From: Methanofollis formosanus
GTDB lineage: Archaea; Halobacteriota; Methanomicrobia; Methanomicrobiales; Methanofollaceae
NCBI RefSeq assembly: GCF_019633745.1
Contig: NZ_CP037968.1
Location: 2,052,789-2,116,788 of the forward strand
DNA: 64,000 bases
Reading direction: 5' to 3'
A program made the position numbers and the translations under genes. Under the pieces are notes generated by a model that saw nothing but the letters and a program-made list of their open reading frames with translations, had not been told where the DNA came from and made no database searches. This document shows, piece by piece, positions 27,634-45,502 of this stretch. How positions within the stretch are numbered: the stretch's first letter is position 1; every line of letters starts with the position of its first letter.

Positions 27634-27653
27634 CGACCGGTCCATTCCGGTCG
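27634..27653 (+). other. Second hairpin between tupA and tupB
   Basis: CGACCGG (27634-27640) and CCGGTCG (27647-27653) form a perfect 7-bp stem with a 6-base loop, 10 bp after the preceding terminator-like hairpin. It could stabilise the 3' end of a tupA transcript or mark a processing site. Confidence 0.45.
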
Positions 27654-27685
27654 TGACCTCTTTCTAAAGACCGAGGACGTGCGAT

Positions 27686-28408: not shown

Positions 28409-28413
28409 ATTTC

Positions 28414-29496
28414 ATGATCGAGCTCCGGCATATTGCAAAATCGTTCGACGGCACCACGGTCCTGCGCGACGTGAACGCCGTCATCCAGGACGGGGAGATC
28501 TTTGCGGTGATCGGGCCGTCGGGCTCGGGCAAGTCCACGCTCCTGCGGATGATCAACCTCCTCGACAGTCCCACCTCGGGCCGGATCCTCCTTGACGGCA
28601 CCGACATCCATGGCGAAGACTCGCACCCGCTGGAGTTCAGGAGGAGAATGGCGATGGTCTTCCAGCGGCCGGCGGTCTTCAATATGAGCGTCTATGAAAA
28701 CATTGCCTACGGCCTCAGGCTCAGGCATATCCCAGAAAAGGAGATCAGGGAGAAGGTGGGATGGGCGCTGGAGGTGATCGGGCTCTCGGGATACGGGACG
28801 CGGCAGGCCCGGACCCTCTCGGGCGGCGAGATGCAGCGGGTCGCGCTGGCCCGTGCGGTGGTCACCTCTCCGACGGTCCTTCTGATGGACGAACCGACCG
28901 CCAACCTCGACCCGGTCTCGACGGCGGCGATCGAGGAACTGGTGGTGCGGATCAATCGCGAGCAGGGCCAGACGGTGATCATCTCCACGCACGACATGCG
29001 CCAGGGCCAGCGGCTTGCTCACCGCATCGGGGTCTTGATGGACGGAGTCTTCTCCCAGGTGGGAACGCCGCGGGAGGTCTTTGCGACGCCGAAGAACAAG
29101 CATGTTGCCAGGTTTGTCGGGATCGAGAATGTCCTCTCAGGCGAGATCACCGCCACCTCCGATGGGGTCGTCACCATCGATGCGGGTGGAGGGGTGAGTG
29201 TCCAGGCCGTCGCCCCGTTCCCGGTGGGCACCCGCGTCTGCGCCTGCATCAAGCCCGAGGACATCACCCTTTACCTCGTGGACGGCAGCCGGATCAGCGC
29301 CCGCAATGTCCTGAACGGGACGGTCACGGAGATGAAGGCCTACGGGCCGCTCAACCATCTCACCATCGACTGCGGGATCCCCTTCGCCGCCCTGATTACC
29401 TGGAAGTCGGCGGAAGACCTGGATATCAGGGTGGGAACAAGGGTGCGTCTCTCGTTCAAGGCGAGCGCGGTTCATGTGGTTGAAGATTTTGAATAA
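28414..29496 (+). CDS. tupC: Tungstate ABC transporter ATP-binding protein
   Basis: 360 residues. Walker A GPSGSGKST, Q-loop MVFQRP, signature LSGGEMQRVALARA, Walker B VLLMDEPTANLD and switch His in STHDM are all present within the first ~230 residues. A C-terminal TOBE-like regulatory domain (IKPEDITLYLVDGSRISARN, NHLTIDCGIPFAALITW) is typical of oxyanion importers and may bind the anion. The ATG at 28414 has GGTGA five bases upstream; a GTG at 28405 is an alternative. It is followed within a few bases by a repeat element. Confidence 0.9.
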   Translation: MIELRHIAKSFDGTTVLRDVNAVIQDGEIFAVIGPSGSGKSTLLRMINLLDSPTSGRILLDGTDIHGEDSHPLEFRRRMAMVFQRPAVFNMSVYENIAYGLRLRHIPEKEIREKVGWALEVIGLSGYGTRQARTLSGGEMQRVALARAVVTSPTVLLMDEPTANLDPVSTAAIEELVVRINREQGQTVIISTHDMRQGQRLAHRIGVLMDGVFSQVGTPREVFATPKNKHVARFVGIENVLSGEITATSDGVVTIDAGGGVSVQAVAPFPVGTRVCACIKPEDITLYLVDGSRISARNVLNGTVTEMKAYGPLNHLTIDCGIPFAALITWKSAEDLDIRVGTRVRLSFKASAVHVVEDFE

Positions 29497-30309: not shown

Positions 30310-31446
30310 TTACACGCCCGATGCTTTCTTCTTCCTCGCCTCCAGCACATATGCCAGGACGAGGCCCACGACGAACCCGACGGTGATGTTCACCAGGAGG
30401 GCGAGGACGGCGATGACGCCGGTGACGAGATACGAGTCGGTCTTGAGACTGTGTTTACCGAGTTCGACGGCGGCGAAGATGAGCAGACCGCCGAAGACGC
30501 CGAGCGGGATGAGGGCGAGGCTCTCCGGCGAGGCGAAGAAGAGGGCGAAGCCGAGGAAGATCGCCCCTGCGATCACGTTCGCCCCGCCGGTCCTGGCGCC
30601 GAAACGGTGCTGGGCGGCAAGTCCGCCGGCGCCATGGCACATCGGGAACCCGCCGAAGGGCACCGAGACCAGGTTCATGATCCCGATCGTCCGGGAGAGG
30701 CGGTCCGGGGGGACGTCGGTCTTGAAGAGGTCGTGAGTGAGGAGGGCGGTGGCGAGAATGGCGTTGGTGAGAGTAAGCGGGAACTGCGGCGGGACGAGGT
30801 AGAGTCCCGCGTAGACGAGGTCGGCGATGTCGGGGAAGACGAGGGAGGGCAGGGGGATCATCGAGATCGGGGGGATGCCGGCGGTGAGGATCCCGGCGCC
30901 GATCCCGATGGCCAGGACGACGAGTGCCGAGATATCGTTGATCTTCCAGCGCAACGCCGCGAGGAAGAAGAGCACGATCACCGCAATCGATATTCCGGCA
31001 AAGAGCGGGTCCGACTCGAGGAAGCCGAGGGCCGTCCTGATCAGCACGAGGGCGAGGCCGGCCTGCACTCCCCTGATGACGGAGACCGGGATCCGGTCCC
31101 TGAGCCAGGTCATACTCCCGCAACACCCGAGGGCGAGGAAGATGACGCCGATGATCATCCCGGCCCCGGCGATCTCCCCGGCGGTCAGTCCTTCGGCGAT
31201 GGCGATCGCCCCGACGGCCTTGAGGGGTTCGATCGGGATGGGGAGCCGGTAGTAGATCCCTGAAAGAACGTACCACAGGGCGAAGAAGAGAAAAATCTGC
31301 GCGAGGTTCACCTCGCAGACCAGGGCGACACCCAGGACAATCGGGAGGATGGTCCCGAAGTCGCCGACCGATCCGGCGAACTCACCGATGGTAAATCTGA
31401 GCGGTCTCGGCCCGTTCTGTTCGTCTGCGTCTCCAATTTCCGTCAT
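30310..31446 (-). CDS. MOT1-type molybdate/sulfate permease
   Basis: 378 residues, ~10-12 membrane helices, no STAS domain. FTIGEFAGSVGDFGTILPIV and LPIPIEPLKAVGAIAIAEGL match the two signature regions of the MOT1 molybdate transporter family (putative sulfate/molybdate permease); GGFPMCHGAGGLAAQHRFGA is the conserved C-terminal signature. It probably moves molybdate or tungstate across the membrane without ATP. The ATG at 31446 is preferred: a TATA-like TAAATAAA near 31530 would place the transcript start downstream of the alternative ATG at 31521. Divergent from modA, with a 111-bp shared promoter region. Confidence 0.85.
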   Translation of the reverse strand: MTEIGDADEQNGPRPLRFTIGEFAGSVGDFGTILPIVLGVALVCEVNLAQIFLFFALWYVLSGIYYRLPIPIEPLKAVGAIAIAEGLTAGEIAGAGMIIGVIFLALGCCGSMTWLRDRIPVSVIRGVQAGLALVLIRTALGFLESDPLFAGISIAVIVLFFLAALRWKINDISALVVLAIGIGAGILTAGIPPISMIPLPSLVFPDIADLVYAGLYLVPPQFPLTLTNAILATALLTHDLFKTDVPPDRLSRTIGIMNLVSVPFGGFPMCHGAGGLAAQHRFGARTGGANVIAGAIFLGFALFFASPESLALIPLGVFGGLLIFAAVELGKHSLKTDSYLVTGVIAVLALLVNITVGFVVGLVLAYVLEARKKKASGV

Positions 31447-31538
31447 CCGGTTGCGTCCCTTCTGTGACGATTGTTTCGGCTCTGATGCAGGAGAAAGATT
31501 TCCCTCCCAGAGTAAAATCATGGGGATTTATTTACGTT

Positions 31539-31548
31539 GTTAATTAAC
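31539..31548. promoter_or_regulatory. Palindrome GTTAATTAAC between MOT1 permease and modA
   Basis: A perfect 10-bp palindrome 10 bp upstream of the modA start, in the divergent promoter region. A longer version, GTTAATT-A-AATTAAC, lies at 45488-45502 upstream of the double binding-protein gene. It may be a metal or oxyanion regulator site; this is inference. Confidence 0.4.
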
Positions 31549-31557
31549 GCTCTCTAT

Positions 31558-32364
31558 ATGAAATCGTTCCCGATCATGCTGATCCTGATGCTCGTGGTCG
31601 GCGCTGCCTGCGCCGTCTGCGGGTGCACCACCGAACAGACAACAACGACACCACAGGTGTCGGAAGAGAAGACCCTGATGGTCTACTGCGGCGCCGGCAT
31701 CAGGGAACCGATGGAGGAGGTCGCTGCCCTCTACGAGAATGAGACCGGCACCCTGATCAAGTTCAGCTTCGGCAACTCCGCCGCCCTCCTGAGCCAGATG
31801 GAACTGGTGCAACAGGGCGACCTCTACATGCCGGGCGCCACCGCCTACATCGAGAAAGCGGCCGAGAAAGGGTATGTGAACACCACCAAAAAGGTCGTCT
31901 ACCACATCCCGGTGGTCGCCGTCGCCAAGGGCAACCCGAAGAACGTGACCTGCATCGAGGACCTGGCGCGTGACGACCTGACCGTCGTCGTCGGCGACCC
32001 CACCGGCCCGGCGATCGGGAAGAGCACCAAGAAACTGCTGAATAGGAGCGGCCTCTGGGACGATGTTTCCGAGAACGCCGCGGCCACGCGGGCGACCGTC
32101 AACGAACTGGTCGTCGATATCTGCATGGGTACGGCAGATGCAACCGTCATCTGGTACGACCTCTATGTGCCCGACAAGATGGACCTCGTCGAGATCCCGA
32201 AGGCCCAGAACGACATCAAGGTGATCCCCATCGGCACGCTCATGTTCTCCGAGAACCCGACTGAGGCACAGAAGTTCGCCGACTTCGTCGCTTCCGACGA
32301 AGGGAAGGCAGTCTTTGTGAAGCACGGATACATTGTCTACCCTGACCCGAAGTACGAGGCCTGA
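31558..32364 (+). CDS. modA: Molybdate ABC transporter substrate-binding lipoprotein (ModA type)
   Basis: 268 residues. Signal and lipobox (CAVCGC), Thr-rich linker, then an oxyanion-binding domain: LMVYCGAGIREPMEEVAALY, IKFSFGNSAALLSQMELVQQ, VVVGDPTGPAIGKSTKKLL and VNELVVDICMGTADATVIWY. This fits ModA-type binding proteins (SBP_bac_11), distinct from the TupA-type protein at 26590. First gene of modA-trmO-modB-modC. The ATG at 31558 begins the signal peptide. Confidence 0.88.
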   Translation: MKSFPIMLILMLVVGAACAVCGCTTEQTTTTPQVSEEKTLMVYCGAGIREPMEEVAALYENETGTLIKFSFGNSAALLSQMELVQQGDLYMPGATAYIEKAAEKGYVNTTKKVVYHIPVVAVAKGNPKNVTCIEDLARDDLTVVVGDPTGPAIGKSTKKLLNRSGLWDDVSENAAATRATVNELVVDICMGTADATVIWYDLYVPDKMDLVEIPKAQNDIKVIPIGTLMFSENPTEAQKFADFVASDEGKAVFVKHGYIVYPDPKYEA

Positions 32365-32411: not shown

Positions 32412-32948
32412 ATGCATTCGGAACCAACCGACCCCACAAAACAGCCGGTCACCTACCGGCCCATCGGCATCATCAGAACACCCTTTACCGAGCAGAAGAA
32501 CACTCCCATCCAGGGGATATTCAACAAGGCATGCGGTACCGTCGAGTTGTTCCCTGAATATGAGGAAGGACTGCTGGATATCGAGACCTTCTCGCACCTC
32601 TTCCTCATCTACCATTTCCACCGGGCGAACGGCACCATGCTCCGCCAGAAACCGTTCCTTGACCTCCAGAAGGAACGCGGCATCTTTGCCATCCGCCACT
32701 TCAACCGCCCCAACCCGATCGGGATCTCGATCGTGGAGTTGAAGGGCGTGCGCGGCAACGTCCTCGACGTCTGCGGCGTGGACACTCTCGACGGCACGCC
32801 GCTCCTCGACGTCAAGCCCTATGTCCACCAGTTCGACCACCGCGAGGAGGTCAGGAGCGGATGGGTGGACGACCAGCACGTGGACGATGTCAGGGAGTGG
32901 AACAGCACCCCCGAGGCCCTCAGGCGGCGCGACCGGGTGAATCTGTGA
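32412..32948 (+). CDS. TrmO/TsaA-family protein (tRNA m6t6A37 methyltransferase fold) inside mod operon
   Basis: 178 residues. YRPIGIIRTPFTEQKNTPIQ, CGTVELFPEYEEGLLDIETF, HLFLIYHFHRA, IFAIRHFNRPNPIGISIVEL, DVCGVDTLDGTPLLDVKPYV and SGWVDDQHVDD are the conserved blocks of the YaeB/VirR/TrmO beta-barrel family. In bacteria TrmO uses SAM to methylate t6A37 in tRNA. This copy sits between modA and modB, and its stop overlaps the modB start, so a molybdate-linked role is possible but unproven. Confidence 0.88.
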   Translation: MHSEPTDPTKQPVTYRPIGIIRTPFTEQKNTPIQGIFNKACGTVELFPEYEEGLLDIETFSHLFLIYHFHRANGTMLRQKPFLDLQKERGIFAIRHFNRPNPIGISIVELKGVRGNVLDVCGVDTLDGTPLLDVKPYVHQFDHREEVRSGWVDDQHVDDVREWNSTPEALRRRDRVNL

Positions 32949-33733
32949 ATGCCCCCAATCCCCTGAAGGCGGTGACGATCGGTGTCGCCACCCTCCTCAC
33001 CGCCTTCATCATCGTCCTGCTGCTCCTCGTCGTCACCCATCCATCCCCCGCCGCACTCCTCTCCTCCATCACCTCGCGGGAGATCCAGTTTGCCGTCTAC
33101 CTCTCGATCGTCACCTCGATAGCGTCGACCGCGATCTGCATCCTGATCGCCGTGCCCTCGGCCTACGCCCTGGCCCGATATGATTTCTTCGGCAAAAATG
33201 CGGTGAACACCGTCGTCGACATGCCGCTCGCCCTCCCGCCGCTCGTCGCGGGTGTGGGACTTCTCCTCTTCTTCGGGACCACGCCGATCGGAAAGGCGCT
33301 CGCCGAAGCGGGCCTGGTCTTCATCTTCACGCCCCTCGGGATCGTGGTGGCGCAGGTCTTCGTGAACTTCCCGTTCATGCTCAGGATCATGCGCTCGACC
33401 TTCGAGTCGATCAGTCCGCGCTACGAGTACGTAGCAAAGACCCTGGGGTGCACCGACATCCAGGCCCTCTGGCGGGTCACCCTCCCGATGGCGACGAGCG
33501 GTCTCATCGCCGGCGGGGTGATCACCTGGGCAAAGGGGATCGGCGAGTTCGGGGCCGCGCTGATGCTTGCCGGTGCGACGCGGATGAAGACCGAGACGCT
33601 GCCGATCTCGCTCTTCCTCAACATGTCCTGCGGCGAACTGGAACTGGCCATCTCGGCGGCGACGATCCTGATCGTCATCTCGGTCGCCTCGCTCTATGTC
33701 TTCGAACGCTATGGCGGGAGCGCCAGGTTGTAG
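32945..33733 (+). CDS. modB: Molybdate ABC transporter permease
   Basis: 262 residues, about six membrane helices (AVTIGVATLLTAFIIVLLLL, FAVYLSIVTSIASTAICILI, PLALPPLVAGVGLLLFFG and others). The binding-protein-dependent transport motif is YVAKTLGCTDIQALWRVTLP. The family signature KGIGEFGAALMLAGAT is typical of ModB/CysW-type oxyanion permeases. The GTG at 32945 overlaps the trmO-like TGA (GTGA), indicating translational coupling. It is 11 bp before modC. Confidence 0.9.
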   Translation: MNAPNPLKAVTIGVATLLTAFIIVLLLLVVTHPSPAALLSSITSREIQFAVYLSIVTSIASTAICILIAVPSAYALARYDFFGKNAVNTVVDMPLALPPLVAGVGLLLFFGTTPIGKALAEAGLVFIFTPLGIVVAQVFVNFPFMLRIMRSTFESISPRYEYVAKTLGCTDIQALWRVTLPMATSGLIAGGVITWAKGIGEFGAALMLAGATRMKTETLPISLFLNMSCGELELAISAATILIVISVASLYVFERYGGSARL

Positions 33734-33744
33734 GAGGGGGATGA

Positions 33745-34791
33745 ATGCTGCAGATTGAACACGTATCCAAAGACATGGGGGAGTTCGTCCTCAAAGACGC
33801 CTCCCTCCAGGTAAACGACGGCGAATATCTGGTGATCATCGGACCGACCGGCGCCGGCAAGACCATCCTCCTCGAGACCCTGGCAGGGATCTATCCTCCC
33901 GACAGCGGCCGGATGATCCTCGATGGTCGGGACATCACCGATGCGCCCCCGCGGGAGCGGCGGATCAGCATGGTCTACCAGGACTACATGCTCTTCCCCC
34001 ACCTCACGGTCGAGGAGAACATCGGTTTCGGGTTGAAGAACCAGAAAGTGGACCCGGCGGAGATCGAAGCAAAAGTGCGGGAAGCCGCTCGGTTCCTCGG
34101 TATCGATCACCTCCTCCATCGCCATCCAGAGACGCTTTCCGGCGGCGAGCAGCAGCGGGCGGCCATCGCCCGGGCGATCGTTATGGAACCCGCGCTCCTC
34201 CTCCTCGACGAACCGTTGAGCGCACTGGACGGCCGGACACGGGAGAAACTCAGGCGGGAACTGCGTCGTCTCCACGACCTCTACGGGATCACGGTGATCC
34301 ATGTCACCCACAACTTCGAGGAGGTCTTCTCCCTCGCGGACCGCGTGGCCGTGATCCGGGGCGGCGAGATCGTGCAGGTCGGCGAACCGCACGAGGTTTT
34401 CAGAAAACCGAACTGCGAGTTCGTGGCGAATTTTGTCGGTGTGGAGAACCTCTTCAAAGGCACCTGCGTCCGGAAGGACGGGGTCTCCGAGGTCACCGTC
34501 GATGGAGTCAGAATGATCTCGACGGCCTCTGGTGACGGTGATACAGTCTGTGTCTCGATACGTCCGGAGGAGATCCTGATCTCGCCCCGGCCGATCGAGT
34601 CCAGTGCACGAAACCGGTATTCCGGGACGGTCGAAGAGATCGCTGATCATGGGGCGACGGTCAGGATCACGGTCGACTGCGGGATCCCGCTGGTGGTGCT
34701 GATCACCAGGCAAGGATATCTTGAGATGGGTCTTGCCGAAGGGGACACCGTCTCTGTGGCCTTCAAGGCCTCGTCAGTCCAGGTCTTTTGA
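33745..34791 (+). CDS. modC: Molybdate ABC transporter ATP-binding protein
   Basis: 348 residues. Walker A GPTGAGKT, Q-loop MVYQDYMLFPHLTVEENIGF, signature LSGGEQQRAAIARA, Walker B LLLLDEPLSALD and H-loop VTHNF are intact. The C-terminal ~110 residues form a MOP/TOBE-like regulatory domain (SIRPEEILISPRP, VRITVDCGIPLVVLITR) as in TupC here. GGAGGGGG precedes the ATG. Last gene of the mod operon; about 100 bp later a repeat module begins. Confidence 0.9.
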   Translation: MLQIEHVSKDMGEFVLKDASLQVNDGEYLVIIGPTGAGKTILLETLAGIYPPDSGRMILDGRDITDAPPRERRISMVYQDYMLFPHLTVEENIGFGLKNQKVDPAEIEAKVREAARFLGIDHLLHRHPETLSGGEQQRAAIARAIVMEPALLLLDEPLSALDGRTREKLRRELRRLHDLYGITVIHVTHNFEEVFSLADRVAVIRGGEIVQVGEPHEVFRKPNCEFVANFVGVENLFKGTCVRKDGVSEVTVDGVRMISTASGDGDTVCVSIRPEEILISPRPIESSARNRYSGTVEEIADHGATVRITVDCGIPLVVLITRQGYLEMGLAEGDTVSVAFKASSVQVF

Positions 34792-35010: not shown

Positions 35011-35361
35011 TCACGCGCTAAAGATCCTCCCCCTGATCGCCTGGAGGAGGTCGGGCCCGAGGATCTCTTCGACCTCTTCAGGATACTCGTCCATAATCCT
35101 GGAGAAGAGAAGTGCGGTCCCTTTTGCATTGGTCGAGACGCCGACCCGTTCGGTGCGGGTGACCAGGCCCTCCCCTTCCATGGCGGCAAGGACGGGGATG
35201 ACATAGTAATGGGGGACCGAGAGATAGGCGGCAAGACGTCTGGTCTTCGGGAACCTGATGCTGATCTCGTCCTCGGTGCAGAGAAATGTGATGGCACGGT
35301 CCTCAGAGATGAGAATCCGTGCAACCGCTGTAAGAATCTCACTTGAGGTCAGTGCAGACAT
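35011..35361 (-). CDS. Small winged-helix protein associated with MoSto-like genes
   Basis: 116 residues. A strand-helix region (ITFLCTEDEISIRFPKTRRL) and a winged-helix-like segment (LAAYLSVPHYYVIPVLAAME then GLVTRTERVGVSTNAKGTAL) suggest a DNA-binding regulator of archaeal wHTH type. The acidic C-terminus (DEYPEEVEEILGPDLLQAIR) could mediate dimerisation. It starts 16 bp after the stop of the small partner gene at 35378, same strand, so the two form an operon divergent from the first MoSto-like gene. Confidence 0.65.
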   Translation of the reverse strand: MSALTSSEILTAVARILISEDRAITFLCTEDEISIRFPKTRRLAAYLSVPHYYVIPVLAAMEGEGLVTRTERVGVSTNAKGTALLFSRIMDEYPEEVEEILGPDLLQAIRGRIFSA

Positions 35362-35377
35362 AACGCAGGTATGAACC

Positions 35378-35602
35378 TTATTCGTCTTTCTTCTTATGGT
35401 GCTCGCTCTCTGGCATCGGTTCGAGCCAGACGATCTCGGCACCGAGGTCTGCGGCGATGAGCTCAATCTCGTTCTTTCTGAAGTGCTTGGACTCCACCCA
35501 GAGTCTTCTGGAGTTGTTGTCCCCGGTTACGGCGACGATACGGAACTTCGGCTGCCTGACGCCGCTGCCGACCTTATTACGTTCACGGACATAGATCTTC
35601 AT
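35378..35602 (-). CDS. Small conserved protein, partner A of the MoSto-like pair (function unknown)
   Basis: 74 residues from the ATG at 35602, which has AGGTGA five bases upstream. KIYVRERNKVGSGVRQPKFR, IVAVTG, WVESKHFRKNEIELIAADLG and AEIVWLEPMP align throughout with the paralogue at 36524-36760 (roughly 60% identity by eye). The pattern is beta-beta-alpha-beta with a basic N-terminal half and a charged tail (SEHHKKKDE). I do not recognise the family. Its divergent arrangement with a MoSto-like gene is repeated with the paralogue. Confidence 0.75.
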   Translation of the reverse strand: MKIYVRERNKVGSGVRQPKFRIVAVTGDNNSRRLWVESKHFRKNEIELIAADLGAEIVWLEPMPESEHHKKKDE

Positions 35603-35622
35603 GGGAATCACCTGACATCCAA

Positions 35623-35692: not shown

Positions 35693-36505
35693 ATCACGGC
35701 AAAACGGTTCGAACTGAATTCAGGGCTCAGAGGTGAGACTATGGTCAGAAAGGGACTGATGCGGCAGATCGACGAGATCCCGCAGATCAGGATCATGCCC
35801 GACCTGAACGTGATCAAGATCGGCGGGCATGGCACCATCGACTTCGGGCGCGAGGTGGTCTTCCCGATCGTGGAGGAGATCGGTGCCCTCAAGGAGGCCG
35901 GGGAGAAGGTGCTCCTGGTGACCGGCGGCGGCGTCAGGGTGCGGCATATCATGGACATCGGGATCAACCTCGGGATGCCGACCGGCGTGCTCGCCGAACT
36001 CGCCGGCAAGATCAGCGAACAGAACGCCCTGATGATGGCCCTCCTCCTCTCCCCATACGGCGGGACGCAGGTGTCGTCGGACGACCTCCTCGAACTCCCC
36101 ACCCTCGCGTCGCTGGGCCTCCTGCCGGTGACCCATGGCACGCCCCCGTACGGGCTCTATGAACAACCTCCGGAGATGGGATCGATCCCGCCGAACCGGA
36201 CCGACACCGGTGCGGTGCTGATTGCTGAGGTGATGGGCGCGAAGAACTGTATCCTTTGCAAGAACGTCGACGGCCTCTTCACCGACGACCCGCGCCTCGA
36301 CCCTGAGGCCGAACTGATCTCTGAGATCACGGCGGAAGAACTCCTTGCAAGGGACATGGAGGACATGGTCCTCGAGAAGAAGGCGGTCGAACTCCTCCTT
36401 CACACCAAGCATGTGAGAGAGATCAGGGTGGTCAACGGCCATGTGCCTGGCAACATTACAAAAGCGGTAAAAGGTGAGGAGATCGGGACCCTGATCCGGG
36501 CCTGA
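35693..36505 (+). CDS. MoSto-like molybdenum storage protein subunit, copy 1 (amino acid kinase fold)
   Basis: 270 residues if begun at ATC 35693, 254 from ATG 35741. MoSto of Azotobacter is a UMP-kinase-like heterohexamer that stores polyoxomolybdate using ATP. Shared motifs, from memory of MosA/MosB: VIKIGGHGTIDFGREVVFPI, GVLAELAGKISEQNALMM, GTPPYGLYEQP, IPPNRTDTGAVLIAEVMGAK, NVDGLFTDDP and HVREIRVVNGHVPGNITKAV. The RFELNSGLRGET segment before ATG 35741 matches RYELESGLRGET in copy 2, so the true N-terminus is probably upstream, where AGGTGA (35683-35688) is followed after 4 bases by ATC. Plain UMP kinase is less likely because archaeal PyrH is shorter and lacks the IPPNRTDTG block. Confidence 0.85.
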   Translation: MTAKRFELNSGLRGETMVRKGLMRQIDEIPQIRIMPDLNVIKIGGHGTIDFGREVVFPIVEEIGALKEAGEKVLLVTGGGVRVRHIMDIGINLGMPTGVLAELAGKISEQNALMMALLLSPYGGTQVSSDDLLELPTLASLGLLPVTHGTPPYGLYEQPPEMGSIPPNRTDTGAVLIAEVMGAKNCILCKNVDGLFTDDPRLDPEAELISEITAEELLARDMEDMVLEKKAVELLLHTKHVREIRVVNGHVPGNITKAVKGEEIGTLIRA

Positions 36506-36523: not shown

Positions 36524-36760
36524 TTATCTGGTGGCGACTTTCATCTCGCCGCGTTTTTCCTCGGGCATCGCTTCGAGCCAGATGATCTCGGCCCCGACAT
36601 CCGCGGCGATCTGCTCAAGTTCGGTCTTCCTGAAATGGGTCGCCTCGACCTTGAGGTGTCCCTCGTCCCCCTTCCCGCCGGTGACGGCGACGACGCGGTA
36701 CTTCGGTTGCTTGACACCGCTGCCGACCTTCTGCCGCTCTCGCGCATAGAGTTTCAACAT
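36524..36760 (-). CDS. Small conserved protein, partner B of the MoSto-like pair (function unknown)
   Basis: 78 residues from the ATG at 36760, preceded by GGGGGAGAGAAG. LYARERQKVGSGVKQPKYR, VVAVTGG, VEATHFRKTELEQIAADVG and AEIIWLEAMPEEK parallel the protein at 35378-35602. The conserved GSG.(K/R)QPK and HFRK..LE segments are candidate functional sites. It is convergent with MoSto copy 1 (18 bp apart) and divergent from copy 2. Confidence 0.75.
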   Translation of the reverse strand: MLKLYARERQKVGSGVKQPKYRVVAVTGGKGDEGHLKVEATHFRKTELEQIAADVGAEIIWLEAMPEEKRGEMKVATR

Positions 36761-36802
36761 CTTCTCTCTCCCCCTCTGGTCCGTGCCGGACCATGGTGTC
36801 AC

Positions 36803-36828
36803 CACTATATATCTGACACTATATAGTG
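36803..36828. promoter_or_regulatory. Operator candidate upstream of second MoSto-like gene
   Basis: CACTATATAGTG (36817-36828) is a perfect 12-bp palindrome and CACTATATAT (36803-36812) repeats its left half 14 bp upstream. The architecture (palindrome plus offset half-site) mirrors that at 35623-35643, although the sequence differs. The AT core may double as TATA box. Confidence 0.55.
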
Positions 36829-38453: not shown

Positions 38454-39239
38454 TCATGGAGTCCGGCAGACCGAGGGGATGCAGACCATTCGTCCGGCCT
38501 CTTCGACATAGGTGATCGTCACATCGATCCCATAGGCCGTGCCGAGGTGTCCGGGAGTCAGAACCTCTTCTGCCGGACCCACGGCGATGAACCCGCCGTC
38601 CTTCATGATCGCCACATGCTGCGGGATGATGAAACTGTGGTCAGGGAAGTGGGAGGTCATCACCACGGCGATCCCTTCCTTCGCAAGCCGTTCGATGAGG
38701 CGGAGAACCCGTACCTGATTCCCGAAATCGAGATGGGATGTCGGTTCGTCGAGGACCATCACGGCAGGTTGCTGTGCCAGTGCCCGTGCGATGAGGGCAA
38801 GTTGTAATTCGCCGCCGCTGATCTCCGAGACCGGGCGATGGGCAAGGTGGTCGATCCCCACGGTGACCAGGGCTTCCTCTGCAACCTTCCGGTCTGCCCG
38901 TCCCGGCGAGGCGAAGAGGGAGAGGTGAGGCGCCCGCCCCATCAGCACAAAATCGATGACATCGAAGGGGAAGACGATCTGATGGGCCTGCGGCACATAG
39001 GCGATCTGTCGGGCCACCTCGGTTCTGGAAAGCGAGGTGATCTCCCTGCCATCGAGTTCGATGGTGCCGGCGTCCAGCGGCAGGACGTTGATGAGGCACT
39101 TGATCAGGGTGGACTTGCCGGTGCCGTTCGGGCCGAGGATGCAGAGGCACTCGCCCCGGTCGACGGAGAAAGAAACCCCCTCAAAGATCGTCCGTGTCCC
39201 GTCATACGAGAACGCGGCGTCTCCGACCGTCAGGATCAT
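38454..39239 (-). CDS. ABC transporter ATP-binding protein (FepC/BtuD type)
   Basis: 261 residues. Walker A GPNGTGKST, Q-loop YVPQAHQIVFPFDVIDFVLM, signature ISGGELQLALIARA, Walker B VMVLDEPTSHLDFGNQ and H-loop TSHFPDH are intact. Close to ATPases of iron-siderophore and corrinoid importers. It overlaps the permease stop by ATGA at 39236-39239, so it is translationally coupled; GGTGGG lies just upstream. Last gene of the minus-strand cluster. Confidence 0.9.
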   Translation of the reverse strand: MILTVGDAAFSYDGTRTIFEGVSFSVDRGECLCILGPNGTGKSTLIKCLINVLPLDAGTIELDGREITSLSRTEVARQIAYVPQAHQIVFPFDVIDFVLMGRAPHLSLFASPGRADRKVAEEALVTVGIDHLAHRPVSEISGGELQLALIARALAQQPAVMVLDEPTSHLDFGNQVRVLRLIERLAKEGIAVVMTSHFPDHSFIIPQHVAIMKDGGFIAVGPAEEVLTPGHLGTAYGIDVTITYVEEAGRMVCIPSVCRTP

Positions 39240-40282
39240 TCCCATCCCACCTTCCTGAACTTCAGCAAGTACGCAAAGACCGGTGCCCCGATCACGGCGG
39301 TGAGGATGCCGAGCGGGATCTCGGCGGCGGTGAGGGTCCGGGCGATGTCGTCGACGACGAGAAGATAGCACGCCCCGATCACCACCGAGACCGGCAGGAT
39401 CTTCTTGTAGTCAGGGCCGACGATCATCCGGGCGATATGGGGGACGACGAGTCCCACCCATCCGATGATACCGCTGATGCAGACGGCCATCGCGGTGATG
39501 ACGGTGGCGCAGACGATGATGATCTGGGTCATTCTGGTGGTGTTGATGCCGAGCGCCTTTGCTTCCTCGTCTCCTACCGAGAGGATGTTGATCCGCCATC
39601 TGATCAGGAGAAGAATAATGATACATACGATGATCAGGGGGCCGATGATATACAGGTCGCTGACCCTGACGTCTGCGAGACTCCCCATCATCCAGAAGAC
39701 GATGGCAGGGAGTTTCTCATAGGGGTCGGCGACATATTTCGTGAGCGAGATCATCGCCTGGAAGAAGGCGCTGACGATGATACCGGCGAGAACGAGGACG
39801 AGGGTGGGGGTGGTGCGATAGACCCGCGCCAGCAGGTAAGTTGCCACGACGGCGACGATCCCGAAGGTGAAGGCGAGGCTCTGGACCACGAACATGGATC
39901 CTGAGATCAGGATGCCCAGCGCCGCCCCGAACCCCGCACCCGAGGCAACACCGAGGATGTGAGGGGAGACCAGCGGGTTTCTGAAGAGTCCCTGAAAGGC
40001 CGCACCCGATATGGCAAGTCCGGCACCCACCAGCATGGCCGCGCAGATGCGAGGGAGCCTGATCTTGAGGACGACGGTGTCCATCACCGTCGGCCAGGTG
40101 TGGGGGATCGAGATGGGGCAGGCCGGGATGGCTTCGATGATCGCCGCTACGATGATCTGAATGGCGGTGACGGGATCGATAGCATACCGTCCGAGAAAGA
40201 ATGAGACCACAAACAAAAAAAGTGGGAGGCCGACAAGAAACCCGATGGTCGTCCATTTCCGGGCCGATCGCATCGCGTTCAT
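39236..40282 (-). CDS. FecCD/BtuC-family ABC transporter permease
   Basis: 348 residues with about ten membrane helices. Family motifs: KIRLPRICAAMLVGAGLAIS, GAAFQGLFRNPLVSPHILGV, AGIIVSAFFQAMISL, LGINTTRMTQII and GWVGLVVPHIARMIVGPDYK (ATPase-contact GxxGLVxPHxxR). It imports a metal chelate such as a siderophore, heme or corrinoid; the substrate cannot be told from the permease. Start codon overlaps the stop of the methyltransferase gene (ATGA). Confidence 0.92.
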   Translation of the reverse strand: MNAMRSARKWTTIGFLVGLPLFLFVVSFFLGRYAIDPVTAIQIIVAAIIEAIPACPISIPHTWPTVMDTVVLKIRLPRICAAMLVGAGLAISGAAFQGLFRNPLVSPHILGVASGAGFGAALGILISGSMFVVQSLAFTFGIVAVVATYLLARVYRTTPTLVLVLAGIIVSAFFQAMISLTKYVADPYEKLPAIVFWMMGSLADVRVSDLYIIGPLIIVCIIILLLIRWRINILSVGDEEAKALGINTTRMTQIIIVCATVITAMAVCISGIIGWVGLVVPHIARMIVGPDYKKILPVSVVIGACYLLVVDDIARTLTAAEIPLGILTAVIGAPVFAYLLKFRKVGWE

Positions 40283-40935
40283 CCTTTTCCTCCCTGGAAA
40301 CGGATCCAGAGTTGCCAGGGGTCATGGAGGATGGTATACTCCTCAATGCCGGCGTCGTTCAGTTCCTCTCTGAACCGTTCTGCCGTCCGGTCCCCGAGGC
40401 GCTCCCGCACCCCGTCGATCCATGTCGGATCGAACCGGTCCATCTGCTCTCCGACCCCCTGAAGAATAGCGGAGCTTCCGAATCCTCCGCCGATCCAGGC
40501 CTCTCCGCCGCGCCTGAGCACCCGCCTGATCTCCCTGAATGCTGCCGCCGGTTCGGGCCAGAAGAAGACGGAACCCTTGCTGACGGCGAGGTCGACCGAG
40601 GCGTCGGAGAGAGGGATCTGTGCGGCGTCGCCGGTGACGGCCGTGATCCGGTCGGAAAGCCCGGCGGCCCTGATGTTCTCGACCGCCACCGGACGCACGC
40701 ACGGCGAGATGTCGAGGGAAACGATCGTCAGGTCGGTGATCCGCGCCAGTTCGATTGCAAGGTGGCCCGGCCCGCTCCCGATATCGACGGCCGTGCCACT
40801 GCCGACTCCACACTCCTGCACGATCTGGCGGGCGACGGCGGCGTTGACCGGGGCGAAGACCGTGCGGGCGAGGCGGTTGAACTCTTCTGCCGATTTTTTG
40901 TCGGTAAAAACTCCTTTTTGATCCCCTTTTTTCAT
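40279..40935 (-). CDS. Class I SAM-dependent methyltransferase
   Basis: 218 residues. Rossmann SAM site AVDIGSGPGHLAIELA (motif I), IVSLDISPCVRPVAVENIRA (acidic residue ending strand 2), TGDAAQIPLSDASVDLAVSK (motif II/III) and FREIRRVLRRGGEAWIGGGF. A standard methyltransferase domain of the Methyltransf_11 type. Located between the 386-residue unknown protein and the permease, overlapping both by 4 bp. The context suggests it modifies, or makes, the imported ligand. Confidence 0.88.
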   Translation of the reverse strand: MKKGDQKGVFTDKKSAEEFNRLARTVFAPVNAAVARQIVQECGVGSGTAVDIGSGPGHLAIELARITDLTIVSLDISPCVRPVAVENIRAAGLSDRITAVTGDAAQIPLSDASVDLAVSKGSVFFWPEPAAAFREIRRVLRRGGEAWIGGGFGSSAILQGVGEQMDRFDPTWIDGVRERLGDRTAERFREELNDAGIEEYTILHDPWQLWIRFQGGKG

Positions 40936-42092
40936 CGGATCCCGCTCCAGAGTTCATTCTTGCTGCTGCGGACCGCCGCCATCGTCCCGTAATTGTAGAG
41001 ATTCCTGGCAAAACACTCTATGGCGATGTCGGTGCCGGCATAGACGTGAGTCATGGTGCTCCTGCTCCCGACCGCCGCACTCCTTCCGGCATATGCCGTG
41101 CCGAGGGTGTCTTCGGGCATCACACCGTACGGACCGGCGAAGGGGTACTCCCTCCCCTCGCCGTCCTCAGGGTAATAACGGAAGCCGGGAGGATAGGGCT
41201 GTTCCGGGAGATGCTGCCCGGCCAGGATGGCTGCATATTGTCCTTCGCCCGGCGAGTACGTGTGCCAGCGCCAGGTGTTTCTGCAGGCATACGCGGGACG
41301 GTCCAGATCGGCGAACCCGACGCCTTCGACGATGATGAGCGCGATCCGTTCCCCTTCTGCAAGGTGCTCCTCGATCATCCCTCTGATGCCGGTGATCTCT
41401 TCTGCCCGTCCGATGTCGGAGACCAGGGGGACCGACTCGTTGCATGCAGGCAGATGGACCAACGGCCGCGGGACACCTCCGAACCCTCTGAAGAGATAAC
41501 CAGGTCTGGCAGCAACGAGATAGTCGGGAAAACGACGCTGTGCGCCGGCACAGAAGAGATCAGCCTTGAAAGCATCCTCACGTTTGATCAGACCCCGTAC
41601 GCCCGGATGGTCGGCGAGAGATTCAAGGTCGTCTTTCGAAGGGTTGTAGAGTCCGGCATAGCGCGGTGCCGCCCCGCCGGTGGCCGTGAGACATGCCAGT
41701 CCGCTCAGATCGATCCTTTCCTGTACAGGAACCATGTCACCGGTGCCGACGATCACCGGAGTCATCCCGGAGGCTTCTGTGAAGCGATCGACCGCACACA
41801 ACGTCTTTTCGACGATATCCTGCCATTCGGTCGGCGAGGGCGCGGTAAAGAGGCGGGTGAGGTAGGGATATGCGTAACTGAGCACCATCAGGCCAGGCGT
41901 TGAGCGGCGGCAGAGGTCCAGTGCCGTATCGGTGACCCATGAGACACTCTCCGGTTTCCGGTCGCCGGGATAGTGATGATCGGCCTGTACCTTGCGTGCA
42001 ATCCTGACCAGAGGGCCGTCCGCGACGGTGCCTCTGCCGGTCCTGAGGTCGACCGTGGTCTGCCAGTCGGTGACGTCGATAACGCCGATCAT
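40932..42092 (-). CDS. Unrecognised 386-residue protein in metal-chelate cluster
   Basis: I do not recognise the family. Start MIGVIDVTDWQTTVDLRTGR at 42092 overlaps the radical SAM stop (ATGA). Notable stretches: VIVGTGDMVPV, RYAGLYNPSKDDLESLADHP, IIVEGVGFADLD, HTYSPGEGQYAAILAGQHLP, and near the C-terminus STMTHVYAGTDIAIECFARN, which faintly recalls the metal-site motif of alkaline-phosphatase-superfamily enzymes. No signal peptide, so probably cytoplasmic. Translational overlaps with its neighbours on both sides make it an integral member of the cluster. Confidence 0.7.
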   Translation of the reverse strand: MIGVIDVTDWQTTVDLRTGRGTVADGPLVRIARKVQADHHYPGDRKPESVSWVTDTALDLCRRSTPGLMVLSYAYPYLTRLFTAPSPTEWQDIVEKTLCAVDRFTEASGMTPVIVGTGDMVPVQERIDLSGLACLTATGGAAPRYAGLYNPSKDDLESLADHPGVRGLIKREDAFKADLFCAGAQRRFPDYLVAARPGYLFRGFGGVPRPLVHLPACNESVPLVSDIGRAEEITGIRGMIEEHLAEGERIALIIVEGVGFADLDRPAYACRNTWRWHTYSPGEGQYAAILAGQHLPEQPYPPGFRYYPEDGEGREYPFAGPYGVMPEDTLGTAYAGRSAAVGSRSTMTHVYAGTDIAIECFARNLYNYGTMAAVRSSKNELWSGIR

Positions 42093-43093
42093 CGGTCGTC
42101 GACCTCCATGGAATCCCACATGACACGTTCCCCATGGATGGGGATCGTCTCCCCACAGAACGGACATCTCCCGTCTTCGAGGAGGGAGCGGACGATCTTT
42201 CCACCGCACCCGCCGGGGTTGATCCGTTCGACGACCGTACGGCCGCATGCAGGGCATACGGTGTTCAGGCGGTTGGATCCGACAAAGTTGCTGAAGTACA
42301 CATAGGGGAGCATCTCCCGTGCGGGTTCGAGGAGGGCGTCGATATGCCTGATGTCGGGTGCCCTTTCCCCGGCCATCCGGTGTTCGGGGAGGAGGCGGAA
42401 GACGTGCCAGGGGATGGAAGGATCGATTCCGGCGATGAACCGGGCAATCTCTTTGATCTCATGATCGTTCTCGCCCTGCACGATGGGGGTGGTCACCTCC
42501 ACATGACAGTGTTCCGCAAGGATACCGATGGTTCTGAGCACAGGGTCCACGCTCTCGACGCCGGCATGTTTCTGGTAGAATGCCGACGACAGCGATTTCA
42601 GGCTGACGTTCACGAACGAAAGGTGCTCTGCGATCGTGTGCGCTGACTCTTCGGTCATGTAGCCGTTTGTGAGGCAACCGATGGGTATTCCCCGCGTGTG
42701 TGCCTGTGCTGCGAGATCGAGGAGCGAGGGGACCGAGACCGTCGGTTCGTTGACCCCGAAGACGATCGTATGGCACCCTGTCTCTTCTGCGATCTGGACC
42801 AGGCGCTCGGGAGAAACATGGAAGAGTTCAACGGTTGCCGGGTCTGTCCTCGCCACAAAGGCATTGGAGCAGTAACTGCATGTGAGGTTGCACCCTGCTG
42901 TTCCCACCTGGAGGGTGCGTGCACCCGGATAGGCGTGAAAGAATGGGAGGGACTCGATGTGCGTTACCTGATATGACGACCAGCGGTGGGGAAAACGTTC
43001 CGTGATCGTCCCCTCATTGAGGGAATACATTCTGCAGAAGCCGATCCGCTCGTCCGAGAGATCGCACCTCCGTTCACAGTAATGACATTTCAT
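42089..43093 (-). CDS. AmmeMemoRadiSam-like radical SAM enzyme
   Basis: 334 residues. N-terminal CHYCERRC..SDERIGFCRMY is the pre-domain of AmmeMemoRadiSam-system enzymes; the radical SAM motif is CNLTCSYC (CxxxCxxC, about residue 69). GVNEPTVSVPSLLDL, GCLTNGYMTEES and VEVTTPIVQGENDHEIKEIA follow, and a C-terminal rubredoxin-like zinc/Fe-S region (CPACGRTVVERINPGGCGGK, CPFCGE) ends the protein. Partners Memo and AMMECR1 are not in the window. Second gene of the cluster, 79 bp after the double binding protein. Confidence 0.85.
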   Translation of the reverse strand: MKCHYCERRCDLSDERIGFCRMYSLNEGTITERFPHRWSSYQVTHIESLPFFHAYPGARTLQVGTAGCNLTCSYCSNAFVARTDPATVELFHVSPERLVQIAEETGCHTIVFGVNEPTVSVPSLLDLAAQAHTRGIPIGCLTNGYMTEESAHTIAEHLSFVNVSLKSLSSAFYQKHAGVESVDPVLRTIGILAEHCHVEVTTPIVQGENDHEIKEIARFIAGIDPSIPWHVFRLLPEHRMAGERAPDIRHIDALLEPAREMLPYVYFSNFVGSNRLNTVCPACGRTVVERINPGGCGGKIVRSLLEDGRCPFCGETIPIHGERVMWDSMEVDDR

Positions 43094-43172
43094 TATTTTT
43101 CTCCTGCGGACCGTTCAGGCCGGCAGTCTGCGTCAAAATGGGTGGGGGATCCCTCCCCCGTGTTCATAGAAC

Positions 43173-45383
43173 TCAGACGGTGGCCTGCATCGGCGCCGGA
43201 GCGGATGCAGCCGCTGCATTGCCGGGGAAATTGGTTGCCGGCAGTGTCCCGCCAAGTTCAGTGAAGGTGGTGCCATAGAACTCTTCGTAGAAGGCGTCTG
43301 CATCTGCAGTCACGTCGACGTCGGCGAAGAGGTCGGGGTGGAGAGCCTTTGCGAGCCATTTGATGCCGAGCACCGCTTCAGGCGACGGATAATCCCAGGG
43401 ACAGACGTTCGATGGGAACACATAGACCTGACGGTTCTTTACGGCTGTAATGTCCTTGAAACGCTCGTCGTTGATGATATCCGTAGGCGTGACCTGGGAC
43501 TGGTACTGGACGATCAGGATGATGTCGGGGTTGTATTCGACGATCTTTTCTGCGTCGATGTCGACCCAGCGGGTGCCGCTCTCGCTTTCAGCGGCATTTT
43601 TCCCTCCTGCAATCTCAATGAGATCGCTCTGGTACATCTCGCCGGTACAGGTGTTCGCCACGCCCGCAGGGCCGACCAGATAGACCACAGGACGTTCCGC
43701 GGCCGAAAGGTCGGAGGTTCTGTCCTGTACAAGTGCGATGTTGTCGGCATAGATCTCACAGAACCGCTCTGCAGTCTCTTTCTCTTCGAGGGCCTCTCCG
43801 AGATTGGTCATGGAGTCGGTGAGTTGATCAATATTCTCAGCAATGACTCCGAAGACCGGTACGTCACAGCCTTCAAGGGCGTTGAGCGTGTTTCTGTCCC
43901 ATCCTGCGATGACGATCAGATCAGGGTCCAGTGCCAGCACTTCCTCAACATTGAATCCAGGGTTGTTGGCACCGACAATGCGATCTTCGGCTCCAAGGGT
44001 CGTAATCATCTTTTGTGCAATCCCGTAACCGGTCGCCACACGTTCGACCGGGAGTTCGACTTCGACCGCGCGTCCGAGACCGTCGGTTACGGTGACGGTC
44101 CTGACATGGGGAGCGGGAGTCGGACCCATGACCTCGCGTGCTTCCTCTTCGGAGAGGTCGTAGTCGTAGAAGAGGCTGTAGAAGTCCTGTGCCTCGGCGA
44201 CCATATCGAGGTCGACGGTGTCGGGGTAGGTGCCGTTTGCAAGCCATTCCATACCGAGGACGGCCTCGGGGACGGGGCTGCCCCAGTCGCCGACAAAGCG
44301 CGGGATACGGTAGACCTTGCCGTGCTTTACGGCCTCGATCTCCTGCCAGGCGGGGTCGGTGAGGAGGGCCTGCGGGTCGCCGTTGTTGCTGAGGATGATC
44401 ACGTCGGGGTTCCAGGTGGCGACCTGCTCGAAGTTCACTTCCTGGCGGTGACCCTGGAGTTCTTCGGAGGCGAAGCGGCATCCCGCGTCATGTGCCCACT
44501 GGGAGTGGAACTCGCCGCCGGCGAAGGTGTGAAGCGGCGACCTCCAGGTGATGTAGGCGTTGTCCTGGTCGGCCTCCGGGATCTCGCCGGTCATCTCGAC
44601 AAGGTCTGAACATTTGTCGTCAAGATACGAGGCCAGTTCTCCGGCGCGTTCGTTCTTGTTCAGGACATCGCCGATGACGGTGAGGGCACCGGTGACATCG
44701 TCGAAACCGTTCGTGTTGAGGTAGACGACCGGTACACCGATCTCCCCGAGACCTCCGCTGGACCAGGAGCCGGCGATGATCACGTCGGGGTGAACGGCGA
44801 GGATCGCTTCCTTGTTCACCTCGATGCCGGTCCCGCTGACGACCGGGATCTCTGAGATGGATGGGTCGATGGTCTGGAAGCCTTCGTCGATGGAGGCAAA
44901 GTAATCGACGCCTGCGAGACGTTCGGCATCGCCGTCGATCGCCATGACCATCGCGGCCGCAGGGGTGTAAAGGGTCACGACGCGATGGGTGGTGTAGGGT
45001 ATCCTGACGCTGTCGCCGTTCATGTCGGTGACGGTCCTGTAGGATGGCGTCGAACTGTCGCTGCCGGAATCATCCCAGTCTGAAGACGACGATGCAGGGG
45101 TGGTTTCGGTGACCGTGGCCGTCACTTCAGGGGCGGTGGTGTTTTCCGGCGTTGGGGTCGGGACCGGCGTCTCGTTTGTCGGAGAGACGGTCGGTACGAC
45201 TGTGTGGGTCGGGTGCGATTCAGGAGCGGCTGTGCTACTGCCCTGTTGAGAGTCTGTACTCTGCTGAGTTGGCGTCTGCGGCTGATCCGGCTGCTGCCCG
45301 GCAGGTGCAAAGATGGCCGCACCAGCAACCACAGCGGCAACGGCGGCTGCTACGAGTAAGATAGCGGTTAGTGTTCGATCCAT
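43173..45383 (-). CDS. Tandem double periplasmic-binding protein (FepB/BtuF type), membrane-anchored
   Basis: 736 residues. An N-terminal hydrophobic anchor (ILLVAAAVAAVVAGAAIFA) without lipobox Cys precedes a ~90-residue Thr/Ser/Pro linker and two periplasmic-binding domains. Domain 1 (about residues 115-400): TVTDMNGDSVRIPYTTHRVV, VNKEAILAVHPDVIIAGSW, NPDVIILSNNGDP. Domain 2 (about 430-710): VTDGLGRAVEVELPVERVAT, EVLALDPDLIVIAGWDRNTL, YNPDIILIVQYQS. Two fused binding domains for one permease are unusual. GGAGATGA lies 4 bases before the ATG, directly below inverted repeats. Confidence 0.9.
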   Translation of the reverse strand: MDRTLTAILLVAAAVAAVVAGAAIFAPAGQQPDQPQTPTQQSTDSQQGSSTAAPESHPTHTVVPTVSPTNETPVPTPTPENTTAPEVTATVTETTPASSSSDWDDSGSDSSTPSYRTVTDMNGDSVRIPYTTHRVVTLYTPAAAMVMAIDGDAERLAGVDYFASIDEGFQTIDPSISEIPVVSGTGIEVNKEAILAVHPDVIIAGSWSSGGLGEIGVPVVYLNTNGFDDVTGALTVIGDVLNKNERAGELASYLDDKCSDLVEMTGEIPEADQDNAYITWRSPLHTFAGGEFHSQWAHDAGCRFASEELQGHRQEVNFEQVATWNPDVIILSNNGDPQALLTDPAWQEIEAVKHGKVYRIPRFVGDWGSPVPEAVLGMEWLANGTYPDTVDLDMVAEAQDFYSLFYDYDLSEEEAREVMGPTPAPHVRTVTVTDGLGRAVEVELPVERVATGYGIAQKMITTLGAEDRIVGANNPGFNVEEVLALDPDLIVIAGWDRNTLNALEGCDVPVFGVIAENIDQLTDSMTNLGEALEEKETAERFCEIYADNIALVQDRTSDLSAAERPVVYLVGPAGVANTCTGEMYQSDLIEIAGGKNAAESESGTRWVDIDAEKIVEYNPDIILIVQYQSQVTPTDIINDERFKDITAVKNRQVYVFPSNVCPWDYPSPEAVLGIKWLAKALHPDLFADVDVTADADAFYEEFYGTTFTELGGTLPATNFPGNAAAASAPAPMQATV

Positions 45384-45487: not shown

Positions 45488-45502
45488 GTTAATTAAATTA
45501 AC
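45488..45502. promoter_or_regulatory. Inverted repeat GTTAATT-A-AATTAAC
   Basis: Perfect 7-bp arms around one base, about 105 bp upstream of the double binding-protein start. Its core matches the GTTAATTAAC palindrome between the MOT1 permease and modA (31539-31548). Confidence 0.45.

Follow-up and report, generated by a model that had tools for sequence, protein, structure and literature searches.

The six-gene operon at positions 38454-45383 (minus strand) of the window, that is, the whole stretch of 64,000 nucleotides of Methanofollis formosanus DNA that was analysed, points together with its bacterial counterparts to an undescribed, probably ligand-based system for the acquisition of molybdenum or tungsten. 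A tie between the operon and these metals is very likely; that enzymes of the operon also make or tailor an organic ligand for this purpose is given an even chance. An earlier note on this DNA had described an unusual importer operon that includes enzymes and a novel protein; this description was confirmed, and the making or remodelling of a metal ligand is the most likely role.

Operon layout and importer

Domains of the six operon proteins were assigned with Pfam and NCBIfam. All six open reading frames were intact, and the following proteins are encoded, in descending coordinates on the minus strand: a binding protein (SBP; 43173-45383; 736 aa) with an N-terminal hydrophobic segment and PF01497 in two Peripla_BP_2 stretches; a radical SAM enzyme (42089-43093; 334 aa); a protein designated X386 (40932-42092; 386 aa); a class I SAM-dependent methyltransferase (40279-40935; 218 aa; PF08241, E 3e-19); a FecCD permease assigned to the MolB clade from PDB matches and trees (39236-40282; 348 aa); and an ABC ATPase (38454-39239; 261 aa from the ATG; PF00005). 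The last five genes are joined by four 4-bp overlaps of the ATGA type, including that of the ATPase ATG (at 39239) with the permease stop, and the SBP stop is separated from the radical SAM start by 79 bp, just as the 4-bp overlaps and closely placed sixth gene had been described before.

The best PDB match of the permease was HI1471 (MolB, 2nq2; 258 bits, versus 140 bits for BtuC), and HI1470 (2nq2_C) was among the top matches of the ATPase. For the SBP, the closest solved chain was another SBP (4hn9, 127 bits); MolA (3psa, 101 bits) was the nearest PDB relative among named oxyanion binders, and BtuF scored 32 bits. In the permease tree, one 100/99 clade contained MolB, all 28 permeases linked to X386 and four permeases linked to Moco riboswitches; BtuC, HmuU, BhuU and the permeases linked to cobalamin riboswitches fell outside it. 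Sequence, trees and gene neighbourhoods all place the importer with the MolBC-A kind. With MolBC-A of Haemophilus influenzae (HI1470-HI1472; PDB 2nq2, 3psa) it shares the FecCD permease, the ATPase, the class III SBP and the clade, whereas radical SAM, X386 and methyltransferase are here fused to or co-operonic with the predicted importer, two binding domains reside in one SBP, and TonB receptors occur in the bacterial loci. Assignment of the operon as a vitamin B12 importer (BtuCDF) was rejected: the permease does not group with BtuC, and neither a cobalamin riboswitch nor cobalamin neighbours accompany it.

Radical SAM enzyme and X386

The operon arrangement recurs in two congeners (90% and 42% identity) and in a further genus within the order; the methyltransferase gene is missing from the operon in locus L007 (one of the two congeners with an intact X386) and in the other genus. 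X386 is partly deleted in one genome with the rest of the operon intact, and most members of the genus and order lack the X386 operon. In distantly related anaerobic bacteria, 28 X386 loci were found (Sporomusa, Geobacter, Desulfovibrio and relatives), with the radical SAM gene directly before X386 in every one, and X386 adjoins 21 of the 22 type-A radical SAM matches in 20 genomes, the remaining match lying at a truncated frame. The arrangement is not due to chance, because it recurs in relatives and its radical SAM-X386 core in the 28 bacterial loci; across phyla, the gene neighbourhoods make the two an almost strict pair. X386 is novel, as the earlier note had it, but not isolated. Genes that occur independently of one another, which the note would have counted against a joint function, were found for the importer and the methyltransferase (both also occur without radical SAM/X386, and methyltransferase homologues are present in 9/28 bacterial X386 loci), but not for the radical SAM-X386 pair.

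The radical SAM enzyme matches PF04055 (E 1e-22), and the cysteines of its CxxxCxxC motif (C68/C72/C75) are invariant in 29 sequences, as are, by alignment, N-terminal C3/C6/C10/C20 and C-terminal C280/C283/C310/C313. The closest named family is AmmeMemoRadiSam (TIGR04337), with which the N-terminal cysteine pattern is shared; the enzyme differs in scoring below the curated cut-off (169.3 versus 220 bits) and in being partnered with X386. Memo/AMMECR1 partners were found neither in the window operon nor among the Pfam-scanned recurrent neighbours of the loci. The model of the enzyme was closest to PFL-activating enzyme, with NifB next; MoaA also matched. A sister radical SAM enzyme, beside which methyltransferase homologues also occur, carries a fused C-terminal, cytoplasmic Peripla_BP_2 domain whose best outside match is the SBP type of the operon (127 bits; SBPs of other clades mostly 15-50). 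Because of this fusion to an SBP-like domain, the transported ligand is the probable target of the radical SAM enzyme. Homology of X386 to the fused C-terminal domain was considered and rejected, since the two did not align and the domain is Peripla_BP_2.

X386 matched no Pfam or NCBIfam family and no PDB sequence, the alignment of 28 members gave only chance-level Pfam matches, and a viral fold library gave no match; by sequence, it constitutes an undescribed family. Its AF2 model (pLDDT 84.6) weakly resembles the core of the alkaline-phosphatase superfamily: Foldseek returned phosphonoacetate hydrolase (1ei6; E 2e-5, probability 1.0, TM only 0.37), followed by ENPP6/ENPP4 (E 0.007-0.05). X386 shows no sequence similarity to that superfamily and only a low TM-score, and its conserved histidines seem too few for the Asp/His set and Thr/Ser nucleophile of a two-metal site: in 28 sequences H349 is invariant and H294 almost so, and D6, T54 and T56 are also invariant. 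A housekeeping function, which the earlier note had named as a possible refutation, was set aside: no family was found, and the distribution is rare (4/61 genomes; 5/232 genomes).

Molybdenum and tungsten context

The operon abuts an 11-kb island of Mo/W genes. This comprises a TupABC-like tungstate ABC transporter (26512-29496, plus strand; best-named models NF041772, NF041773 and NF040840, below equivalog cut-offs), a MOT1-type molybdate transporter (30313-31521, minus strand; PF16983, E 9e-54), the molybdate-binding protein ModA (31537-32364, plus strand; TIGR01256, 86 bits, above cut-off), a ModB/ModC (WtpC-like) molybdate/tungstate permease and ATPase (32861-34791, plus strand; TIGR01581 and NF040840, above cut-offs) and two paralogous molybdenum-storage-protein-like subunits on the plus strand (35750-36505, amino-acid-kinase fold, PF00696; 36845-37657, PDB 2ogx_B, 3e-59, 204 bits versus 58 for uridylate kinase). 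A palindrome upstream of the operon (GTTAATTtAATTAAC, 45488-45502) is repeated between the divergent ModA and MOT1 genes (GTTAATTAAC, 31539-31548). Its pattern, GTTAAN{0,8}TTAAC, occurs at seven sites genome-wide, two of which are in the window (P = 0.009 for at least two of seven), and the palindrome also precedes the operon in L007 and ModA in locus L006. This rare element, common to the operon and ModA/MOT1, is a putative operator. The Moco riboswitch (RF01055) was not found in the archaeal window.

Neighbours in the X386 loci include TonB receptors, ExbBD, MOT1, ModE, MoeA, FmdE and DUF364, and in several phyla the system lies among genes for the transport and storage of Mo/W. Mo-specific genes were present in 7/22 X386 loci, i.e. 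directly in only a third, versus 2/42 other FecCD loci (P 0.006), and both Mo-positive controls hold MolB-clade permeases themselves; for FmdE the counts were 11/22 and 5/42 (P 0.002). Enrichment of the methyltransferase and of TonB receptors over other FecCD loci was not significant (P 0.26 and P 0.21). Many diderm X386 loci hold a TonB receptor and ExbBD, which suggests a solute larger than free molybdate.

A Moco riboswitch lies within 10 kb of X386 in 4 of 21 places (expected 0.4; P 0.0008). It directly precedes the radical SAM-X386 pair in one case, a Bacillota MAG; the other two Moco riboswitches of that genome each precede an importer of the same kind, at distances of 0.6 and 1.1 kb, and one of the riboswitch-linked operons reads SBP-permease-ATPase-DUF364-ModABC. 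In all, RF01055 was found upstream of the importer operons L090, L092, L095 and L109, and 1.5-3.8 kb upstream of four of the six long-frame matches to the radical SAM-SBP fusion in the surveyed genomes (expected 0.03). Most X386 loci, Desulfovibrio included, have no Moco riboswitch nearby. The riboswitch of locus L030 (2401-2522) was set aside as evidence for operon control, being on the opposite strand.

Proposed role and alternatives

Molybdenum and tungsten are required in methanogenesis, syntrophy, CO2 reduction and nitrogen fixation, and sulfide makes both scarce in the habitats of the organisms concerned. The proposed system would respond to such scarcity, e.g. under anoxic conditions where sulfide binds the metals. 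A small organic ligand of Mo or W would be built or tailored by the radical SAM enzyme and X386, often together with the methyltransferase; the metal-ligand complex would enter through the two-domain SBP and the MolBC-type pump, assisted in diderms by a TonB receptor and ExbBD, and the imported metal could then enter cofactor synthesis or be taken over by the neighbouring molybdenum-storage-like proteins. More tentatively, the product of radical SAM and X386 (with or without the methyltransferase) in methanogens and strict anaerobes may be a dedicated Mo/W metallophore that a TonB receptor and MolBC-A-type pumps take up, with MolBC-A as one branch of a family of Mo/W-ligand importers. The proposal is weakened by the loci that lack the methyltransferase, by the partial deletion of X386 in one genome and by the scarcity of nearby Moco riboswitches and direct Mo genes. 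Against ligand synthesis, these three proteins are few for a whole metallophore pathway, and the loci hold no conserved exporter.

This last point, with the lack of a larger biosynthetic set, would fit a different use of the same enzymes, in which a foreign-made complex is dismantled or altered after import and Mo/W is freed for storage or cofactor synthesis. A cytoplasmic SBP domain on the sister radical SAM enzyme would be expected if it gripped the incoming complex, and the X386 model is hydrolase-like; however, conservation of a hydrolase active site is not evident from the two histidines, and a methyltransferase would be odd in a release route. We regard this explanation as unlikely, if still of some weight.

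A lower probability is assigned to plain molybdate/tungstate import, the enzymes making or modifying an internal Mo/W-dependent cofactor or protein and being linked to the importer by shared metal regulation only. MolBC-A of H. influenzae, whose MolB falls within the permease clade, transports free molybdate (PMC4031551), so that no chelate need be involved; Moco synthesis and Mo enzymes are likewise under Moco riboswitch control (PMC2408646), and the resemblance of the radical SAM model to NifB and MoaA would fit. The clustering of TonB receptors and ExbBD with the pair argues against it, as does the SBP-domain fusion, which ties the enzyme to the ligand of the importer.

Import and remodelling of a corrinoid, heme or iron/nickel chelate, the ligands that the earlier note had associated with such importers, is very improbable. 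FecCD and Peripla_BP_2 domains are typical of systems for these compounds, and the best NCBIfam model for the permease is a BtuC, but the permease groups with MolB, apart from BtuC, HmuU and BhuU, and its PDB scores agree. Among the X386 loci covered by Rfam scans, none had a cobalamin riboswitch, whereas same-genome FecCD loci of other clades had them in 4/7 cases (Moco riboswitches in 0/7), and the system is surrounded by Moco riboswitches, Mo storage, ModABC, TupABC and MOT1. Chance assembly of an importer and unrelated enzymes beside Mo genes is scarcely credible, even with importer and methyltransferase found apart from the pair and the operon so sparsely distributed, as it is refuted for radical SAM and X386 by their almost strict pairing and for the importer by the shared operon at these loci, and independent Mo/W links exist in at least three phyla.

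Catecholate molybdophores of Azotobacter, made by NRPS-type pathways in aerobes, share with the proposed ligand-based system the idea of chelate-based Mo uptake; their pathways are not known to include radical SAM/X386. ModABC, WtpABC and TupABC serve the same presumed metal, and ModABC and a TupABC-like system are encoded next to the operon, but their permease and SBP families are unrelated and come without the enzymes. These three were listed as the known prokaryotic high-affinity Mo/W uptake systems in a survey in which 291 Mo-using prokaryotes had no known transporter and chelate-type uptake was not named (PMC6147048). DUF364, which co-occurs with the system as a neighbour and is not in the window operon, comprises "heavy-metal chelation" proteins linked to Mo/W/V/Fe transport genes, for which pterin- or siderophore-like chelators were suggested; the part of that source consulted does not mention the radical SAM/X386 pair (PMC2954201). 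The system was not found described in open-licence literature on molybdophores with radical SAM or on Moco riboswitches with TonB.

If the proposal is correct, ligand-based uptake served by a dedicated radical enzyme would account for Mo users without known transporters and would give a function to the "unknown" families X386, FmdE, TrmO-FmdE and DUF364. The real cargo of MolBC-A, regarded as a low-affinity "molybdate" importer, would then be in question.

Operon and importer

The six genes grouped in the earlier note (38454-45383, minus strand) are all intact, and the last five are indeed joined by four ATGA overlaps of 4 bp, as claimed there; the gap from the end of the binding-protein gene to the radical SAM gene is 79 bp. 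Peripla_BP_2 (two stretches), Radical_SAM, class I methyltransferase, FecCD and ABC_tran domains were assigned with Pfam and NCBIfam. The 386-residue protein (X386, 40932-42092, minus strand) was matched by neither library, its 27 relatives gave chance-level Pfam matches at most, and its profile found no match in the PDB.

The description of the importer as BtuCD-like has to be replaced. Among solved structures the permease comes closest to HI1471 (MolB, 2nq2; 258 bits), with FhuB (184), HmuU (175) and BtuC (140) well behind, and the binding protein scored 101 bits with MolA versus 32 bits with BtuF, another binding protein, 4hn9, being closer still. In maximum-likelihood trees, MolB, all 28 permeases of X386 loci and four permeases linked to Moco riboswitches (RF01055) form one clade (support 100/99), with BtuC, HmuU, BhuU and four permeases from cobalamin-riboswitch loci outside it; several long branches make the branching within this clade uncertain. 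Judged by phylogeny, the importer is of the MolBC-A kind, its cargo being putative. MolBC-A of Haemophilus influenzae is a low-affinity molybdate importer whose MolA component binds tungstate as well as molybdate (PMC4031551). Five loci (L014, L018, L024, L038 and L039) each carry two separate binding-protein genes, like the two domains of the window protein, so the system seems to require two.

Molybdenum and tungsten surroundings

The operon has as neighbours two molybdenum storage protein paralogues, one matching 2ogx_B at 3e-59, ModABC (ModA, ModB and WtpC-type models exceeding the cut-off), a MOT1 molybdate transporter and a TupABC-like tungstate transporter. Two of the seven genomic copies of the rare palindrome GTTAAN{0,8}TTAAC fall in the window (P 0.009), upstream of the operon and between ModA and MOT1; the palindrome recurs upstream of the operon in the congener locus L007 and upstream of ModA in L006, which is suggestive of common regulation of the operon and ModA/MOT1, though not proof.

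Several smaller genes were recorded alongside. A TrmO-like gene (32412-32948) lies within the ModABC operon and TrmO-FmdE fusions occur in Bacillota X386 loci (e.g., L022 11865-12686), so the association with molybdenum recurs even though TrmO proteins form a tRNA methyltransferase family. Divergent from the two molybdenum-storage-like genes are the genes of two small basic paralogues (VGSGV..P.YR.VAVTG...; 36524-36805 and about 35440-35620, minus strand). A 151-residue, predicted winged-helix-like protein (35014-35466, minus strand) between ModC and the storage protein genes matched nothing in Pfam/NCBIfam and is a possible Mo/W regulator.

The neighbours of bacterial X386 loci include TonB receptors, ExbB/ExbD/TonB, FmdE, TrmO-FmdE fusions, DUF4213/DUF364, MoeA, ModE-like regulators and MOT1. 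Counts were compared with 42 control FecCD loci from the same genomes as 22 X386 loci: Mo-specific genes were present at 7/22 versus 2/42 (P 0.006), the two control loci that scored themselves carrying MolB-clade permeases, and FmdE at 11/22 versus 5/42 (P 0.002). At L016, a Bacillota MAG locus, Rfam placed a Moco riboswitch 113 nt upstream of the radical SAM-X386 genes; the other two Moco riboswitches of that genome precede importers of the same kind, one of whose operons runs on into DUF364 and ModABC. Such a riboswitch lies within 10 kb of X386 at 4 of 21 places (0.4 expected), and close importer relatives in Geobacter have one 126-254 nt upstream of the permease. FecCD loci of other clades (n=7) gave no Moco riboswitch and, in four cases, a cobalamin riboswitch. 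TonB channels close to molybdopterin and cobalamin riboswitches were remarked earlier in a Pelobacter genome (PMC3543383), and the DUF364 structure paper notes transport neighbours for Mo, W, V and Fe (PMC2954201). The operon is thus very probably linked to molybdenum or tungsten.

In two Selenomonadales MAGs, a 99- plus 538-residue gene pair stands just 3' of a Moco riboswitch (L030 16238-18189; L031 318-2266). Near MolB-clade importers, DUF1858 occurs as a fusion with SBP_bac_6 or an ABC ATPase, accompanied by a CobW-like GTPase (L017 1252-2472; L023 2213-4943; L022 4074-5793); this module is unusual and seemingly cytoplasmic.

The radical SAM-X386 pair

X386 is rare near home (4/61 relatives, one copy a deletion remnant; 5/232 genomes of the class). 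Screening 84,980 species genomes turned up 28 loci in bacteria: Sporomusa, Selenomonadales, other Bacillota, Geobacter, Desulfovibrio/Solidesulfovibrio, Desulfotignum and Deltaproteobacteria MAGs. All 28 have, immediately upstream of X386, a radical SAM gene like that of the window operon (48-56% identity). Conversely, 21 of 22 strong matches to this enzyme in 20 X386 genomes adjoin X386, the remaining one being a truncated frame, and none was found in 15 Geobacteraceae genomes lacking X386. Importer, binding proteins and methyltransferase associate more loosely: the permease clade also occurs without the pair, and the methyltransferase gene is absent from L007 and from L094 (another genus of the order). 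In a Bacillota MAG (L041 8971-10076), X386 is split over two frames with in-frame stops, an assembly error or a pseudogene.

The radical SAM enzyme retains CxxxCxxC and three more cysteine groups; the structures nearest to its model are PFL-activating enzyme and, next, NifB, MoaA being matched as well, and the enzyme falls below the AmmeMemoRadiSam cut-off. For the X386 model (pLDDT 84.6) the best match was phosphonoacetate hydrolase (TM 0.37, E 2e-5, probability 1.0), followed by ENPP proteins, which would make X386 probably distant kin of the alkaline-phosphatase superfamily. Because only one histidine is invariant and another almost so, a standard two-metal hydrolase site appears doubtful.

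A sister fusion and the proposed role

Three congeners (G002, G006 and G007) and Sporomusa, Geobacter and Solidesulfovibrio genomes encode a sister radical SAM enzyme that carries a Peripla_BP_2 domain at its C terminus (575-662 residues in open frames). Such fusions lie at L051 6512-8263, L053 6398-8146, L052 7168-8895, L068 14640-16439 and L111 5601-7403. In fully read examples the radical SAM domain stands at the start and no signal peptide is evident. The fusion usually neighbours the same methyltransferase, and its binding domain is apparently cytoplasmic. The best outside matches of this domain are binding proteins of the window-operon type (123-128 bits), versus mostly 40-95 bits for other MolB-clade binding proteins and mostly 15-50 bits for other-clade loci. 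Of the six long-frame fusions in the surveyed genomes, four have a Moco riboswitch 1.5-3.8 kb upstream (0.03 expected). In G006, X386 has an internal deletion and a scrambled frame between intact neighbours (L008 8127-8684), and the fusion plus methyltransferase is encoded elsewhere; this fits replacement of one version of the system by the other.

The strongest hint that the radical enzyme works on the transported ligand is that its sister form bears an apparently cytoplasmic binding domain of the importer's type. Construction or tailoring of an organic ligand by the radical SAM enzyme and X386, perhaps with the methyltransferase, is the favoured reading, at about an even chance. That the same proteins dismantle the ligand or release the metal from it after import is a less likely reading. 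The open-licence literature searched contained no description of the pair or of its link to molybdenum and tungsten. In the favoured reading, a proposed system for acquiring molybdenum or tungsten, the enzymes would furnish an organic ligand for molybdenum or tungsten, which the binding protein and the MolBC-type pump would carry.
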